DNA from: a virus
DNA length: 24,150 nt
Reading direction: 5' to 3' (one strand)
IMG/VR virus record: IMGVR_UViG_3300042434_002119
Location: 1 to 24,150 of that record
The notes under the pieces were generated by a model. That model made no database searches. It saw only the letters and a program-made list of their open reading frames with translations, and was not told where the DNA came from. This document shows, piece after piece, positions 392-11,321 of the stretch (positions are counted from its first letter, which is position 1; each line of letters opens with the position of its first letter). The translations under genes were made by a program, and so were the position numbers.

Positions 392-625
392 TTACTCTAC
401 TGCTATAGCTTTAAATCTTACTTCTACTTGTTCATTTCTGCCCCCTTCAATCCCTGTCTCGCCTTCATTTAAACCATTAAAAAATCCATTCTCAATGTCT
501 ATAAAAGCGTAATCAAATTTTTTTCCTTTTTCTATAGTTCCAAAATCTTCTAAAAATTCAATATTATGAAGATTTATACATCCGGGGTCTGCTTCATCCC
601 ACCCATCACTCTTTATTGGTAACAT
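392..625 (-). CDS. Small acidic phage protein, unknown
   Basis: A 77-residue frame whose ATG at 625 lies inside the 3' end of the upstream ATPase gene (20 nt overlap) and is preceded by a strong AAAGGAGGA ribosome site, so the two are probably translationally coupled. The sequence is acidic, with a Trp/Asp/Glu-rich start (MLPIKSDGWDEADPGC) and a predicted beta-rich middle. No motif recognised. Its position directly after a Sak4-like ATPase is one where phages often encode recombination or SSB-type accessory proteins, but nothing in the sequence proves that role. Confidence 0.65.
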   Translation of the reverse strand: MLPIKSDGWDEADPGCINLHNIEFLEDFGTIEKGKKFDYAFIDIENGFFNGLNEGETGIEGGRNEQVEVRFKAIAVE

Positions 626-1418
626 TTTTATCTTCCTCCTTTTTGATTTCTTCTAAAGCTTTTTTTTCAGCTTCTCTTTTTTTGATAAAATACATAAATA
701 AAGGGTTTTCACCATCTTTAAATCTAATCTCTTCTTTAATGCCTATTGTATTTTTTGAAGCTGAATTTTCACTTTTCATACAGCTAAAAATTCTTTCTCC
801 TGTATCGCCATTTCTTGCTCTTTCGTCCGAAACAGAAAATGGAACGGATATCTTTGCAACCAAATCAGAAAAATACGTGTAAACGGGTCTTGCTTGTTTT
901 GTAACGTCAATTGTTGCGCACAAATAATTTTCTGAAAAGCCAGCATGAACCATGCTTTCGTTTGTCATGTGAGCTAAATAAATAACCCACATACCTTTTT
1001 CATCTACTAACCTGCTGCATAAATCATGTATTTGCTTATGTTTTTCATAAGCTTTTTTGCCAGGAGCTCCAAAGCCTCCTGCAGACGATTCAAAAGTTTT
1101 TGGCTTGGCGGGGTCTTCATCCATTATCTGTTGTCTAATCAATAAATCCACAGCAGAAATAGAATCAATTACAACTGATTTGTATTCATGGTCTTCATTT
1201 ATTAAACCTGTTAAAACTTTAATAACATCATCTAATTTTTTTAAAATAGGCGTTGTATCTATCCCTTGGTTCTTTAATCCTTTTTCAGCTCTAATAAAAA
1301 GCGGCTTTGGAAATGTAGAGGCAAAAGTTGTTTTACCTACAGCCTCCGCGCCATAAACAGTAATAATAAATGATTTTTGTTTCTCTACTCTTGTTGTCAT
1401 GCTTTTTAATATAGACAT
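606..1418 (-). CDS. Phage nucleotide-binding protein, AAA_24 / Sak4-like RecA-fold ATPase
   Basis: A 270-residue protein with a Walker A motif near the N-terminus (GAEAVGKTT, residues 23-31) and a Walker B strand (SVVIDSIS, about residues 81-88), followed by the long RecA-core region and a charged Lys/Glu-rich tail. This layout matches the phage AAA_24 family, whose members include Sak4-type single-strand annealing or RecA-like proteins used in phage recombination. The function assignment rests on fold and motifs and is an inference. The ATG at 1418 is preceded by AAGAGAG; Met7 has no comparable site. It has its own sigma-70-like promoter at 1475-1447 and probably leads a short unit with the genes down to 113. 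Confidence 0.85.
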   Translation of the reverse strand: MSILKSMTTRVEKQKSFIITVYGAEAVGKTTFASTFPKPLFIRAEKGLKNQGIDTTPILKKLDDVIKVLTGLINEDHEYKSVVIDSISAVDLLIRQQIMDEDPAKPKTFESSAGGFGAPGKKAYEKHKQIHDLCSRLVDEKGMWVIYLAHMTNESMVHAGFSENYLCATIDVTKQARPVYTYFSDLVAKISVPFSVSDERARNGDTGERIFSCMKSENSASKNTIGIKEEIRFKDGENPLFMYFIKKREAEKKALEEIKKEEDKNVTNKE

Positions 1419-2970: not shown

Positions 2971-3495
2971 TTAATCTTCTATCTCAATCAAATTTCTTAT
3001 GTTTATTAAAATTTGATCTTTTATTTTTTGTTTTTCAGCATAAGCATTAGAAGCGAAAGCAGCATCAGCAACAAAAGCAGCATAAGCAGCAACATAAGCA
3101 GCATCATAAGCAGCATCAGCAGCAGCACAACAAGCAACGGCATAAGCAGCATGAATAGCATAAGCAGCATCATCTTTCAAAATTTTTGTTGTTATAGATG
3201 TATCACCATTACACCATTTTTCAACTGTTTCAATAGATTTAAAGGGTTCTTTTTCTCCTTTTTTTAAAAATTTCATGACTAATCTTACGTTTTGACAAGC
3301 TGAACTAACAATAGCTTTATGATCTACTCCCATTTCATTAGCTAACCAATATAGCCAAGAATATCTTTCACATGTATTCCAAGTTTGTTTCAAATCAAAG
3401 CTTTTTTCTTTGACCCAGTTAATAGCTTGACCGCATGCTTTAAGTTCATTTAGTTTTGATAAAAATTCTTCATTACTTAAATTTTTTAATTTCAT
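2971..3495 (-). CDS. Alanine-rich Imm-5-like protein, copy A
   Basis: A 174-residue protein. The N-terminal 100 residues contain the pattern ACGQAINWVKE...WNTCERYSWLYWLA, followed by an Ala-Tyr/Ala-Asp repeat stretch (about residues 108-150) and a conserved tail ending NLIEIED. The Cys/Trp N-terminal pattern followed by AAY/AAD repeats resembles proteins annotated as putative immunity protein Imm-5; the biochemical role is not established. It is a paralogue of the gene at 3938-4630 and shares the leader before ATG and the 3' end with it. Start ATG 3495 has AAAAGGTAATTAAT upstream. Confidence 0.75.
   Translation of the reverse strand: MKLKNLSNEEFLSKLNELKACGQAINWVKEKSFDLKQTWNTCERYSWLYWLANEMGVDHKAIVSSACQNVRLVMKFLKKGEKEPFKSIETVEKWCNGDTSITTKILKDDAAYAIHAAYAVACCAAADAAYDAAYVAAYAAFVADAAFASNAYAEKQKIKDQILINIRNLIEIED
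2977..3020. repeat. 44-bp tail repeat, copy 1
   Basis: An identical 44-bp stretch occurs at 2977-3020, 3944-3987 and 4911-4954. On the minus strand it encodes the C-terminal DQILINIRNLIEIE tail of the alanine-rich proteins. Here it is the 3' end of copy A. Confidence 0.9.
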
Positions 3496-3937: not shown

Positions 3938-4630
3938 TTAATCTTCTATCTCAATCAAATTTCTTATGTTTATTAAAATTTGATCTTGTATTGTTTGTTT
4001 TTCATAATCAGAGGCAACAGAGGAAGAATTAGCAGAAGCAGCAAAATCAGCAGAATCAGTAGCATAAGCAGCAGCATGAGCAGCATCATAAGCAGCAGAA
4101 TCAGCAGCAGCAGCAGCAGCATAAGCAGCATAAGCAGCATCATAAGCATAATCAGCATAAGCAGCATCATAAGCAGCAATATAAGCAGCATTATAAGAAC
4201 GATAAGCATCATCAGCAGCAGCCGCAGCAGCATCAGCAGCAAAATTAGCAGCATCAGCAGCAAAATTAGCAGCATCATCAGCAGAAGCATAAGCATCAGA
4301 AGCAGCAGATTTCAATATTTCTGTTGTTATAGATTCATCACAATTGCACCATCTTTCAACTTTATTAATAGCTTTTAAAGGTCTATCTTCTCCTTCTTCT
4401 ACAAATTTAAGAACCAGTTTTGCATTTTGACAAGCTGAATTAACAATAGCTTTGTGCTCTACTCCAATTCTACTGGCTAACCAATATAGCCAAGAATACC
4501 TTTCGCATGTATTCCAAGCCTGTTTTAAATCAAAGCCTTTTTCTTTGACCCAGTTAATAGCTTCACTGCATGCTTCAAGTTCATTTAGTTTTAATAAAAA
4601 TTCTTCATTACTTAAGTTTTTTAATTTCAT
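3938..4630 (-). CDS. Alanine-rich Imm-5-like protein, copy B (expanded repeat)
   Basis: A 230-residue paralogue of the gene at 2971-3495. The first 100 residues are largely the same, including ACSEAINWVKEK and CERYSWLYWLA. The Ala/Tyr/Asp repeat (about residues 110-205) is twice as long as in copy A. The C-terminal tail NLIEIED is again identical. The repeat is coded almost only by GCT triplets alternating with TAT/GAT, so length change by slippage is likely. Start ATG 4630 shares the AAAAAGGTAATTAAT leader with copy A, which means the duplication included the leader. Resemblance to Imm-5-like proteins is by pattern only. Confidence 0.75.
   Translation of the reverse strand: MKLKNLSNEEFLLKLNELEACSEAINWVKEKGFDLKQAWNTCERYSWLYWLASRIGVEHKAIVNSACQNAKLVLKFVEEGEDRPLKAINKVERWCNCDESITTEILKSAASDAYASADDAANFAADAANFAADAAAAAADDAYRSYNAAYIAAYDAAYADYAYDAAYAAYAAAAAADSAAYDAAHAAAYATDSADFAASANSSSVASDYEKQTIQDQILINIRNLIEIED
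3944..3987. repeat. 44-bp tail repeat, copy 2
   Basis: 3' end of the alanine-rich copy B, identical over 44 bp to 2977-3020 and 4911-4954. Confidence 0.9.
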
Positions 4631-4660: not shown

Positions 4661-4837
4661 TTAAAATGGGATATCGTCATCAAAATCTTTATTTTTCGCC
4701 TCCCTAGCTTTCATCATTTCATCAGAAATATCGTACGCTGATTTAGCGTACGCTTCAGGTTCTCCGCTGACACGTCCGCCAACCAGGAAACCCTGCATTG
4801 CCAACCCAGCAAAATAATCTCTTAGTTCAATATTCAT
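4661..4837 (-). CDS. 58-residue phage protein ending in an SSB-type C-terminal tip
   Basis: I chose ATG 4837 (MNIELRDYFAGLAMQG) because GAGGTG lies just upstream; a longer frame from 4906 lacks a site. The first 45 residues follow a pattern common in small phage proteins (RDYFA..AMQ ... EAYAKSAYDISDEMMKARE). The last eight residues are DFDDDIPF, the same as the C-terminal tip of E. coli SSB, which docks PriA, RecO, ExoI, the clamp loader and other repair and replication proteins. The protein has no OB-fold, so it is not an SSB. By inference it may recruit or sequester SSB-binding host proteins. It lies two genes downstream of the primase-helicase. Confidence 0.8.
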   Translation of the reverse strand: MNIELRDYFAGLAMQGFLVGGRVSGEPEAYAKSAYDISDEMMKAREAKNKDFDDDIPF

Positions 4838-4877: not shown

Positions 4878-4982
4878 TTACACTCCGCAAGTTTTGCAAA
4901 TGCCAACCCCTTCTATCTCAATCAAATTTCTTATGTTTATTAAAATTTGATCTTGTATTATTTGTTTTTTTTCAGCTTCCAT
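4878..4982 (-). CDS. 34-residue chimeric mini-ORF carrying the alanine-rich protein tail
   Basis: ATG 4982 overlaps the stop of the upstream gene (TAATG), with GTGGAAAG upstream. The frame reads MEAEKKQIIQDQILINIRNL, continues with IEIEG, and ends ICKTCGV. Its first 24 residues are the C-terminal tail of the alanine-rich proteins, so it is a fragment of a third copy that acquired a new start and a new end with a CxxC. It may be translated by coupling; no function is inferred. Confidence 0.45.
   Translation of the reverse strand: MEAEKKQIIQDQILINIRNLIEIEGVGICKTCGV
4911..4954. repeat. 44-bp tail repeat, copy 3 (remnant)
   Basis: Identical over 44 bp to 2977-3020 and 3944-3987 but without the rest of an alanine-rich gene, so it is the scar of a lost third copy. 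The match to copy 2 runs a few bases further (GTATT). Confidence 0.85.
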
Positions 4983-5404
4983 TACTTTCCACTTTCTTTT
5001 AAATTAACTAAAAATAATTTAGGCTCTTGTTGCTTTTCTTCTACATAATCAAGTCTACTAAAATTTAATCCTAACTTTAAAGCTTTCCTGTACAACTTTA
5101 AATCCAAAACATAAACAGGTTTTAAGCATTCTCGAAAAGGTTTTGGAAGTTTAATAAAATCCTCAATTATTCTTTTATGTTTCAACTCTCGTTTCACTTG
5201 TTTTACAATGCGAAAAAAACCATCACAATTTTCTGGTAGCCTTACAGTGAAAGAACCTTCATTTTTTTTATTTAAAATTTCCTTATTAAAATTTATTAAT
5301 TTACAGGCTATTTCTTTTCTTTTTTCTGTTATTTTTTTTTGCTCTAAAGATATTTGCTTGTATTCTTTATACAAACTTATTAAAAATTCATCAGATGGGC
5401 TCAT
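4982..5404 (-). CDS. Coiled-coil/charged phage protein, possibly DUF7173-like
   Basis: A 140-residue frame starting MSPSDEFLISLYKEYKQ at ATG 5404. Earlier in-frame ATGs lie inside the promoter described below. Residues about 10-45 form a charged helix. The C-terminal part has PKPFRECLKPVYVLDLKLYR, which resembles the closing pattern of DUF7173-type phage proteins; this is a weak assignment. The start is only 6 nt after the -10 box, so the mRNA is probably leaderless. It heads the unit that continues with the chimeric mini-ORF and the SSB-tip protein. Confidence 0.7.
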   Translation of the reverse strand: MSPSDEFLISLYKEYKQISLEQKKITEKRKEIACKLINFNKEILNKKNEGSFTVRLPENCDGFFRIVKQVKRELKHKRIIEDFIKLPKPFRECLKPVYVLDLKLYRKALKLGLNFSRLDYVEEKQQEPKLFLVNLKESGK

Positions 5405-5410
5405 TTTTAT

Positions 5411-5440
5411 ATTATACATTAAAATTAAATAAAAAGTCAA
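5411..5440 (-). promoter_or_regulatory. Near-consensus promoter, probably leaderless transcript
   Basis: On the minus strand TTGACT (5440-5435), 18-bp spacer, TATAAT (5416-5411), then six bases (ATAAAA) and ATG at 5404. The usual start of transcription about 7 nt after the -10 box falls on the A of the ATG. No Shine-Dalgarno sequence precedes this ATG. Confidence 0.75.
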
Positions 5441-5448
5441 GTTTATTT

Positions 5449-7080
5449 TTAATTATCGTTATACCTTAATTCTCTAAAACTTTTCACTTCTTTTTCAGAA
5501 ATATTATTATCGGGTAACTCTTCAAATACGGCTGAATACAATTCTTTATCTTCAAATTTAAATTGATGGCTTTTTATTTCGCCGCTTAGCGGTAAAAATC
5601 TCAAAGCATTTTTTTGCTCTTTACATGTAATATAAGTAATACCATCCTTTGTATTTACTAGCATTTCTGTATTTAGTGAGCCTGTAATAACAGAGGAGCC
5701 TCTAGCTCTGTCCGTTGTGCCATGCCCTGTGTGATGCACAACGCCCAAAGCAACAGACGGGAAAACTTCAAATATTTTTTGACATGAATTAAAAAATCTT
5801 GTCATATCTGCGCTTTCGTTTTCGTTTCCATTCCCATAATTTCTATTAAGAGTGTCAACAATAATCATTTTTATGTTTCGTCCGCTCATTTTTAAAGCGT
5901 TCAAATCATTCAAAAACGCAGACATTTCCTCTTTTTCTAAAAAATGAACGGGTGATGTTGTGATCATAAAGTTTTTATCAGTCCAATGATACCTATCGCA
6001 TAACGCTTTCACTCGTATGTTCACAGAATTAAAATCCTCACCGCAAATATAAAGAACGTCTCCGCCACCGTCAGAAAATTCATTGTGATAAACCCTAGCA
6101 TTGTTCGCTGCTGCCAAAGCTAGATACAATACAAAAAATGATTTCCCGTGCTTGGGTTGCCCAACAATAAAAAATATTGCTCCTGACTCTAAAAATGGGT
6201 CTAAAAACCATTTTGCTTCTCTGTAGCATGTTCCAAATTGAATAAGACTGCTGACTTTAAAAAAATAAGCTTTTACAGCTTCCACTCCTTCATTGCAGAA
6301 AACATCGCTAAAATCTTCTCCTTTATTTTTCGGGGAAATTATTAAGCAATTGGAAATTGTAGCCCGGCATTCCTCAGCTACTTTTAAGCCCGCATCATCA
6401 TTATCTGCTGCAATTAAAATTGAAATTGAAGGATTTTTTCTTCGCAGCGTTTCTGCCAAAAATTGAATATTTCCAGCCGACCATGCAACACAAACATTTT
6501 CTTTTGTCGATTCCCAAATTGAATAACCTGTGGCCCAACCCTCGCAAATTATAATTCTATTCTTGTTCTCCGAGGGAAAAGAAAAACAAGAGCCTTTTTG
6601 ACGACTACCCGACTCAAACATTTTAACGCCGTTTTGTGATATTTTCTGCAAACCTACGAGTTCGTTTTTAATGTTTTTCATCGGCAAAACAACATGTTTT
6701 TCGTTGCTTTTTATCAAGCCAGAAATAGAATGAAGATTAACTTTTTTCTTTTTTAGGTAATCATGATCTTGTATGCCAACAATAGTATTGTATTGATAAT
6801 TAAAAATACCGGTTATAATATCTGTTTGATCGTCTTTACTAATATACGATATCAACTCTTTTTTATTATCTGATTTAATTTCGGTAGGATAATAAAAAGT
6901 CCCCTCATTTCTGAAATCGCCATACGCACCAAAACATTCTCCATTTCTGACTGAATAAATAAACCAAGCAGGCTTTTTATTTTTAGATGAATCCGTCGTA
7001 GCGCAGCGATTGATTTTGCCTTCTATTGGATTGGTAAAATCAAACCCAATAGATTTTAAATGATCTAAGAAATTGTACAT
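5449..7080 (-). CDS. Phage primase-helicase: Toprim domain plus RepA-like helicase
   Basis: A 543-residue protein. Residues about 175-250 form a Toprim domain with the catalytic Glu in IIICEGWATG (E180) and the DxD pair in AADNDDAG (D226, D228). Residues about 290-500 form a RecA-like (AAA_25/RepA-type) ATPase with Walker A GQPKHGKS (307-314), Walker B MIIVDT (D409) and the VHHTGHG motif (about 448-454). The N-terminus (1-60) resembles the primase-associated region but lacks a clear four-Cys zinc ribbon. Such proteins lay down primers and unwind DNA for phage replication. The gene ends 45 bp before the promoter at 5440. Upstream lies a leader with alternative RNA folds. ATG 7080 has TTGAGG 6 nt upstream. 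Confidence 0.9.
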   Translation of the reverse strand: MYNFLDHLKSIGFDFTNPIEGKINRCATTDSSKNKKPAWFIYSVRNGECFGAYGDFRNEGTFYYPTEIKSDNKKELISYISKDDQTDIITGIFNYQYNTIVGIQDHDYLKKKKVNLHSISGLIKSNEKHVVLPMKNIKNELVGLQKISQNGVKMFESGSRQKGSCFSFPSENKNRIIICEGWATGYSIWESTKENVCVAWSAGNIQFLAETLRRKNPSISILIAADNDDAGLKVAEECRATISNCLIISPKNKGEDFSDVFCNEGVEAVKAYFFKVSSLIQFGTCYREAKWFLDPFLESGAIFFIVGQPKHGKSFFVLYLALAAANNARVYHNEFSDGGGDVLYICGEDFNSVNIRVKALCDRYHWTDKNFMITTSPVHFLEKEEMSAFLNDLNALKMSGRNIKMIIVDTLNRNYGNGNENESADMTRFFNSCQKIFEVFPSVALGVVHHTGHGTTDRARGSSVITGSLNTEMLVNTKDGITYITCKEQKNALRFLPLSGEIKSHQFKFEDKELYSAVFEELPDNNISEKEVKSFRELRYNDN

Positions 7081-7387: not shown

Positions 7388-8296
7388 TTAGCTCCTTCCA
7401 AAATAGGTTTCTTGCAAATTGGCTCCTTGCAAATAGGCTCCTTCCAAATCGGCAAATTGCAAGTTAGCTTTTCGCAAATCGGCCCATTGCAAGTCAGCTT
7501 TTCGCAAATCGGCTCCTTGCAAATTGGCTCCTCGCAAATTAGCTCCTTTCAAGTTAGCTTTTCGCAAATCGGCTCCTTGCAAATCGGCCCATTGCAAGTT
7601 AGCTTTTCGCAAATCGGCTCCTCGCAAGTCAGCTTTTCGCAAATCGGCTCCTCGCAAGTCGGCTCCTCGCAAGTCGGCTCCTTGCAAGTTAGTTTCTCGC
7701 AAATCGGCTCCTTGCAAATTGGCTGCTTTCAAATAGGCTATTAGCAAGTTGGCTTCTCGCAAATTAGCTCCTTTCAAGTCGGCTTGTTGTAAATAGGTTT
7801 CTTGCAAATAGGCTCCTTGCAAATTGGCTTTTTCCAAGTCGGCTTCTCGCAAGTCGGCTTTTCGCAAATTAGCTCCTTCCAAGTTAGCTCCTCGCAAATC
7901 GGCTTTTCGCAAATTAGCTCCTTCCAAGTTAGCTCCTCGCAAATCGGCTCCTTGCAAATAGGCTCCTAGCAAATCAGCCCATTGCAAATAAGCTCTTTGC
8001 AAATCGGCTCCTCGCAAGTTAGCTCCTTGCAAATTAGCTCCTAGAAAGTCGGATCCTCGCAAATCAGCTCCTTGCAAATTAGCCCATTGCAAATAAGCTT
8101 CTTGCAAGTTAGCTTCTCGCAAGTTAGCTTCTTGCAAATAGGCTCCTCGCAAGTTAGCTTCTTGCAAGTTAGCTCCTTGCAAATCGGCTCTTTGCAAATC
8201 GGCTCCTTGCAAGTCGGCTCGTTGCCTTAAAACGCCATTTGATATAATCCATTCTTTATGTTCAGCTATAATTTTTTGTAATTTCTCTATTTTCAT
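7388..8296 (-). CDS. Pentapeptide-repeat protein (about 53 repeats)
   Basis: A 302-residue protein. After a 27-residue N-terminal helix (MKIEKLQKIIAEHKEWIISN) it is made almost wholly of A(D/N)LxX pentapeptides, which fold into a right-handed quadrilateral beta helix. Repeats are regular to the end (...NLQETYFGRS). The N-terminal segment resembles the HxxW leader found in many pentapeptide proteins. Some family members (Qnr, MfpA) mimic DNA and bind gyrase, but most have no known role, and nothing here identifies a target. The DNA consists of 15-bp near-identical units and is prone to unequal recombination. Start ATG 8296 has AAGAGGG upstream. Confidence 0.9.
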   Translation of the reverse strand: MKIEKLQKIIAEHKEWIISNGVLRQRADLQGADLQRADLQGANLQEANLRGAYLQEANLREANLQEAYLQWANLQGADLRGSDFLGANLQGANLRGADLQRAYLQWADLLGAYLQGADLRGANLEGANLRKADLRGANLEGANLRKADLREADLEKANLQGAYLQETYLQQADLKGANLREANLLIAYLKAANLQGADLRETNLQGADLRGADLRGADLRKADLRGADLRKANLQWADLQGADLRKANLKGANLRGANLQGADLRKADLQWADLRKANLQFADLEGAYLQGANLQETYFGRS

Positions 8297-10778: not shown

Positions 10779-11321
10779 TTAGAAATTATCTCCTCTAAAA
10801 TTAGCTCTTTCCAATTCGGCTCCTTGCAAGTTAGCTTCTCGCAAATCGGCTCCTTGCAAGTTAGCTCCTCGAAAATCAGCTCCTCGCAAGTTATCTCCTT
10901 TTGAATAAAGGGAATCTTCCCAGCTGCCGTAAAATTTTGCTGAAGTGCAGCACGCATAATCCAAAAAGAGGGAAACCCACATTTCAAGAGATTTATTTAA
11001 AATCGGACGACTTTTAAAAACATACCAATCGCCTGATTCATCTTTTGCAATAAAATTATAATTAGGATATTGAGCTAATATTTCTGCCCGTGTGTCCGTT
11101 TGCAAATCTTCATTAGAATTCACAGCAGGAATACGATTATAAAAAGATGTAGAATCATTTAACATAACCTCTCTCTCAAACTTAACTTTAAAAAAAGATT
11201 TTTCTTCTTCATAAACAAAATCACAAGAAAAGTACTTCCAATTATCAGCATGGTGATTGTCAATTGTTTTTAACAAATTTTTTAAATCAGTTTTAATCGT
11301 GATATAATCGTATTTAATCAT
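10779..11321 (-). CDS. Protein with short C-terminal pentapeptide stretch (frameshift-truncated)
   Basis: A 180-residue frame. Residues 1-140 form a globular domain of unknown family (MIKYDYITIKTDLKNLLKT...; Trp/Tyr/Cys-rich around residues 120-140). Residues about 143-180 are pentapeptide repeats (NLRGADFRGANLQGADL...). The frame ends at a stop created by an apparent 1-bp deletion; the repeat continues in the next phase to 10720. The ATG at 11321 overlaps the 3' end of the XRE gene by 8 nt, so the two are coupled. The N-terminal domain may be unaffected by the truncation. Confidence 0.75.
   Translation of the reverse strand: MIKYDYITIKTDLKNLLKTIDNHHADNWKYFSCDFVYEEEKSFFKVKFEREVMLNDSTSFYNRIPAVNSNEDLQTDTRAEILAQYPNYNFIAKDESGDWYVFKSRPILNKSLEMWVSLFLDYACCTSAKFYGSWEDSLYSKGDNLRGADFRGANLQGADLREANLQGAELERANFRGDNF

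Follow-up and report, generated by a model that had tools for sequence, protein, structure and literature searches.

The locus studied here raises the question of why a small phage protein that is not an SSB should end in the very peptide with which bacterial SSB recruits its partners, and what such a peptide would do there. The last residues of SSB are a central docking hub in bacterial DNA repair and replication; this tip, DFDDDIPF in full in E. coli, docks into pockets of many partner proteins. In the window, which comprises all 24,150 bases of the virus record and is probably a fragment, a 58-aa protein carries the same eight residues. We suggest, with a confidence that we put at about even, that it is a short, helical member of a phage family of wide distribution, and that it recently gained an SSB docking peptide and is able to engage SSB partners. 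The features on which this argument turns are:

4661..4837, minus strand: ORF of the tip protein, 58 aa, stop codon within the coordinates

4664..4687, minus strand: codons of the DFDDDIPF tip, GAT TTT GAT GAC GAT ATC CCA TTT

4694..4831, minus strand: family domain, residues 3-48, defined by phrog profile matches and AlphaFold2 helices

Reverse-strand translation of 4661-4837 gives MNIELRDYFAGLAMQGFLVGGRVSGEPEAYAKSAYDISDEMMKAREAKNKDFDDDIPF (58 aa plus stop), with a C-terminus that is exactly DFDDDIPF and a stop codon immediately after the final F, which confirms the first-pass annotation of a 58-residue protein with this precise ending. The ATG at 4837 is preceded by GAGGTGAAT, with a strong Shine-Dalgarno sequence (GAGGTGA) at normal spacing, and is a better choice than the TTG start of the 81-aa version that had been listed.

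The body of the protein belongs to a known group. Profile matches extend over most of its length, the best being to phrog_2201 (residues 3-50, E 8.5e-10) and weaker ones to phrog_20565 (E 7.7e-8) and phrog_37111 (E 1.2e-5), all of them phage families of unknown function; a Pfam search of the 58-aa protein returned no matches. It shares with these families the core LRDYFAGLAMQG...AYxxADAML, and R6, A10 and A13 are invariant in both family alignments (A1 and A2), whereas family members stop near ...ARExx and lack the acidic tip. AlphaFold2, run with 41 sequences, predicts two helices at residues 5-19 and 27-54 with a mean pLDDT of 86.5 and values of about 64 in the final block of residues; the tip is located outside the family domain. 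A fold search of the PDB with the predicted structure gave no significant matches, and that of BFVD retrieved solely other small phage proteins (best E 9.5e-3).

At its extreme C-terminus the protein is identical to bacterial SSB and has the acidic, PF-ending tip that marks the SSB family; it differs from SSB in lacking the OB-fold ssDNA-binding domain, in place of which two helices are predicted, and the long Gln/Gly/Pro-rich linker, and in having only 58 residues in total. When the window was searched with SSB profiles the sole notable match was the tip ORF (E 7.3e-5), which we attribute to the shared tip. Thus the earlier view that there is no OB-fold is supported, the description as a common small phage protein is borne out by the phrog_2201 match, and the structure prediction that had been recommended yielded the two-helix model.

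The peptide itself is DDDIPF, the SSB-Ct of E. coli (PMC5928155), extended by two residues. Calculated from the amino-acid composition of the genes in the window, the probability of DFDDDIPF at a given C-terminus is 3.8e-11, and that of DDIPF 2.5e-7. Among 16,097 ORFs from fetched loci, 241 end in DDIPF, a count inflated by loci that were fetched on account of DDIPF, and none in any other ordering of D, D, I, P and F; this zero is informative. Among the matches listed, DFDDDIPF is the commonest tip, found in 118 of 219 distinct DDIPF-ending phage ORFs, a share inflated in that DFDDDIPF itself was the query in one of the two collecting scans, and an iterated SSB profile claims 169 of the 219. 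Taken together, the chance estimates, the ordering counts and the SSB-profile share indicate that the tip is real and of SSB type. That eight residues converged by chance would agree with the absence of the tip from every relative; however, at about 4e-11 per C-terminus and about 4e-9 for 100 ORFs this explanation is effectively refuted, unless astronomically many genomes were screened, and we regard it as scarcely credible.

Phages of Enterobacteriaceae, Pseudomonas, Burkholderia and Rhizobium, as well as environmental contigs, encode relatives of the protein, with the family domain either standing by itself or forming the terminal part of a longer protein. None of about 60 other distinct complete members in IMG/VR has the DFDDDIPF tip, their ends lying near ...MLKAREx, and an acidic SSB-like tip is thus not a trait of the phrog_2201/20565/37111 family. 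DNA patterns that combined family core, gap, tip and stop had no matches in IMG/VR, and versions with longer gaps or looser tips found unrelated proteins only and no family case, in collections from which the records closest to the window may be missing. Apart from the first scan, which was empty, the pattern scans as a group hit genuine SSBs, proteins that were DUF669-like or unrelated, and sites not in frame. The family-plus-tip pattern matched four times in about 85,000 prokaryote genomes, in three SSBs and one protein resembling DnaB helicase, and never in a family member. A Bacteroidales protein (L332:1380-2909), by eye similar to the DnaB replicative helicase, ends GDDDIPF. The family domain is present in 4 of 369 genomes (the class of one Methylococcales genome), and the members L365 and L366 from these loci both lack the tip; one pattern match in the same search fell at the place of L329, a true SSB, and was set aside. 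A further candidate, H89/MW202462, came from a search with hand-made consensus-like probes and was rejected, its alignment crossing a stop codon and its protein ending ...MLKAREQ.

Among GenBank phages, P0001 aligns through to its final residue only with proteins of two Rhizobium phages, which are identical to each other over all 88 residues and end SYYDEDRPF. This family relative (L362:2917-3183 in Rhizobium phage RHph_N2) has an acidic, PF-ending tail that is not the identical tip, and is possibly an independent case, loosely SSB-tip-like. Close relatives of the phage itself were sought with primase-helicase patterns, which had no matches in IMG/VR, and with the terminase, which gave only about 25% identity. 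The first-pass annotation had proposed aligning homologues to see which carry the tip, and had held that absence from all relatives together with a difference from the host SSB tip would speak against it; none of the relatives examined has the tip, so that the half concerning relatives holds.

The tip gene sits within a run of minus-strand genes, of which the following are relevant:

606..1418, minus strand: Sak4-like single-strand annealing recombinase, 270 aa (phrog_124, E 3.3e-31; PF13479)

2971..3495, minus strand: 174-aa paralogue of the 230-aa protein

3938..4630, minus strand: 230-aa Ala/Asp-rich protein (phrog_38757), next gene downstream of the tip gene, one of two paralogues that end ...DQILINIRNLIEIED

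4878..4982, minus strand: 34-aa ORF MEAEKKQIIQDQILINIRNLIEIEGVGICKTCGV, its start overlapping the stop of the upstream gene (TAATG)

4982..5440, minus strand: upstream gene, 152 aa as listed with a TTG start; phrog_24085 at E 0.014 only

5449..7080, minus strand: Toprim primase-helicase, 543 aa

8361..9587, minus strand: RecF/SMC-like AAA ATPase, 408 aa (PF13175/PF13476; phrog_1499, E 5.4e-33)

The primase-helicase, the RecF/SMC-like ATPase and the Sak4-like recombinase bear out the earlier placement of the gene near primase-helicase and recombination functions. The 230-aa and 174-aa paralogues are conserved at the N-terminus, MKLKNLSNEEFL, and contain long Ala/Asp/Tyr-rich repeats with 9- and 12-base steps.

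Evidence on how the tip may have been acquired comes from a 60-nt segment encoding KQxIxDQILINIRNLIEIE, which is present in three copies of 97-98% identity (2976-3035, 3943-4002 and 4910-4969). Two copies form the 3' ends of the paralogous genes, whose lengths are unequal and whose remaining parts are far less similar; the third, 98% identical to the copy at 3943-4002, falls inside the 34-aa ORF that immediately precedes the tip gene. The copies are exactly 967 bases apart, though the intervening segments differ. Short tail segments have, on this comparison of repeats, evidently moved at the locus, which makes the grafting of an ssb 3' end plausible. Given its absence from every other family member examined, the tip on the 58-aa protein looks like a recent graft. 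A donor was not found among the fetched tip-bearing genes, the best tails of which share 28 of 33 bases, an agreement mostly forced by the genetic code.

The nearby Sak4 offers a specific connection to SSB. In phage HK620, most of the stimulation of Sak4 by the phage SSB depends on the six C-terminal residues of that SSB, NDYPPF, and contact with Sak4 was observed only with SSB on ssDNA (PMC5928155). The present phage resembles HK620 in bearing a Sak4 and a tail like the bacterial SSB tip, as NDYPPF is (PMC5928155); it differs in that the HK620 protein is a real DUF669 SSB, an apparent tetramer encoded next to sak4, whereas the 58-aa protein is a non-SSB encoded about 3.2 kb from sak4. No DUF669 SSB adjoins sak4 in the window, and the ORF just downstream of it (392-625) has no family matches. 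A profile search found no SSB of canonical or DUF669 type within the 24,150-base record, and no degenerate or frameshifted SSB was found there; since the record is a 24-kb fragment, an SSB gene may lie outside it. For four related Sak4 genes that were examined, the next gene is annotated as, or resembles, an SSB/DUF669 protein, with tails of DFDDDVGF in H103, DVDDEIPF in MW202675 and none in the two others. Gene order in Alteromonas phage PB15 (Sak4-like ATPase, then a 128-aa protein, then an SSB-like gene) suggested that the tip ORF might occupy the position of ssb; this idea was dropped, because the window's 152-aa neighbour does not match the PB15 128-aa protein.

Several explanations of the tip can be weighed on this basis. 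The main rival to a docking peptide is a functionless graft, in which recombination joined an ssb 3' end, from host or phage, to the gene and the tail has been carried neutrally. We hold this to be a serious, if tentative, alternative: the tip is unique both within the set of about 60 distinct relatives and in the family-plus-tip pattern scans, its occurrence in one record only provides no sign of selection, and another shuffled tail segment is present at the same locus. Neutral tails usually decay, however, and this one is letter-perfect, with its stop codon right after the final F, and the presence of similar tips on further phage proteins that are not SSBs suggests that such a graft can be useful. 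The docking-peptide reading draws on the exactness of the eight-residue tip, far beyond chance, on its position outside the family domain where model confidence falls, and on the recurrence of the same kind of tip on non-SSB phage proteins; the mosaic tails at the locus, a Sak4-like recombinase on the same strand, given the dependence of HK620 Sak4 on an SSB tail (PMC5928155), and the want of an SSB in the record, when four related sak4 genes adjoin an SSB/DUF669-like gene, also speak for it. Against it stand the single record in which the tip is known and the possibility that an SSB lies beyond the 24-kb fragment.

A narrower proposal is that the phage encodes no SSB and that the 58-aa protein provides its Sak4 with an SSB tail in trans. 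The encoding of Sak4 on the same strand, the stimulation of HK620 Sak4 through the tail of its SSB (PMC5928155) and the contrast between this record and the four Sak4 relatives all lend themselves to this idea; yet contact in HK620 was seen only with ssDNA-bound SSB and no DNA-binding domain is known in the 58-aa protein, sak4 and the tip gene are some 3.2 kb apart, the tails of Sak4-linked SSBs vary and the record is a fragment, and we consider it quite improbable. A little less doubtful, and still unlikely, is the more general notion of a dedicated trans-acting protein, by which an SSB-less phage would mount the docking peptide on a small helical scaffold distinct from any SSB. Were this true, such a protein would recruit or retune recombination proteins, whether its Sak4 or host SSB partners, and the hub function of SSB would be separated from its DNA-binding function.

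Returning to the docking peptide, we propose that the 58-aa protein gained it as a new C-terminal tail by tail grafting, so that it most likely displays the SSB tip without the SSB body. The flexible tail could then dock into the pocket with which SSB partners bind the tip; candidate partners are PriA, RecO, RecQ, ExoI and the chi subunit of the host, or the Sak4 that the phage encodes. Such binding might bring these partners to whatever the helical domain binds, or the tip might occupy the partner's pocket so that SSB cannot. Of these two possible effects we slightly prefer recruitment over blocking, since a single SSB-tip peptide binds its partners weakly and a small protein with one tip would block well only at high abundance. 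If the proposal is correct, moving the tip from SSB to another protein would give a phage an easy means of capturing or blocking a large number of host enzymes together, and the 58-aa protein would be a small natural inhibitor or recruiter for study.

Both the tip and the small family are already known, and it is their combination that is new; our literature search found no paper on a non-SSB phage protein with a DFDDDIPF-type tip. Other non-SSB phage proteins for which a DDIPF ending was observed are two DEAD/ResIII helicases (L036 and L202, the L202 query being a fragment with a few altered N-terminal residues that leave the helicase assignment unaffected), an AEP primase (L065) and a thioredoxin-like protein (L073). 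Like the 58-aa protein they bear an SSB-type tip on a non-SSB body; their bodies are unrelated to it and mostly those of large enzymes. The recurrence of the tip on such proteins, helicase and primase among them, makes a wider survey worthwhile. Elsewhere in the window, the minus strand at 7388-8296 encodes a 302-aa pentapeptide-repeat protein with about 50 in-register 15-base repeats, and a second, shorter pentapeptide-repeat protein is found at 10779-11321.
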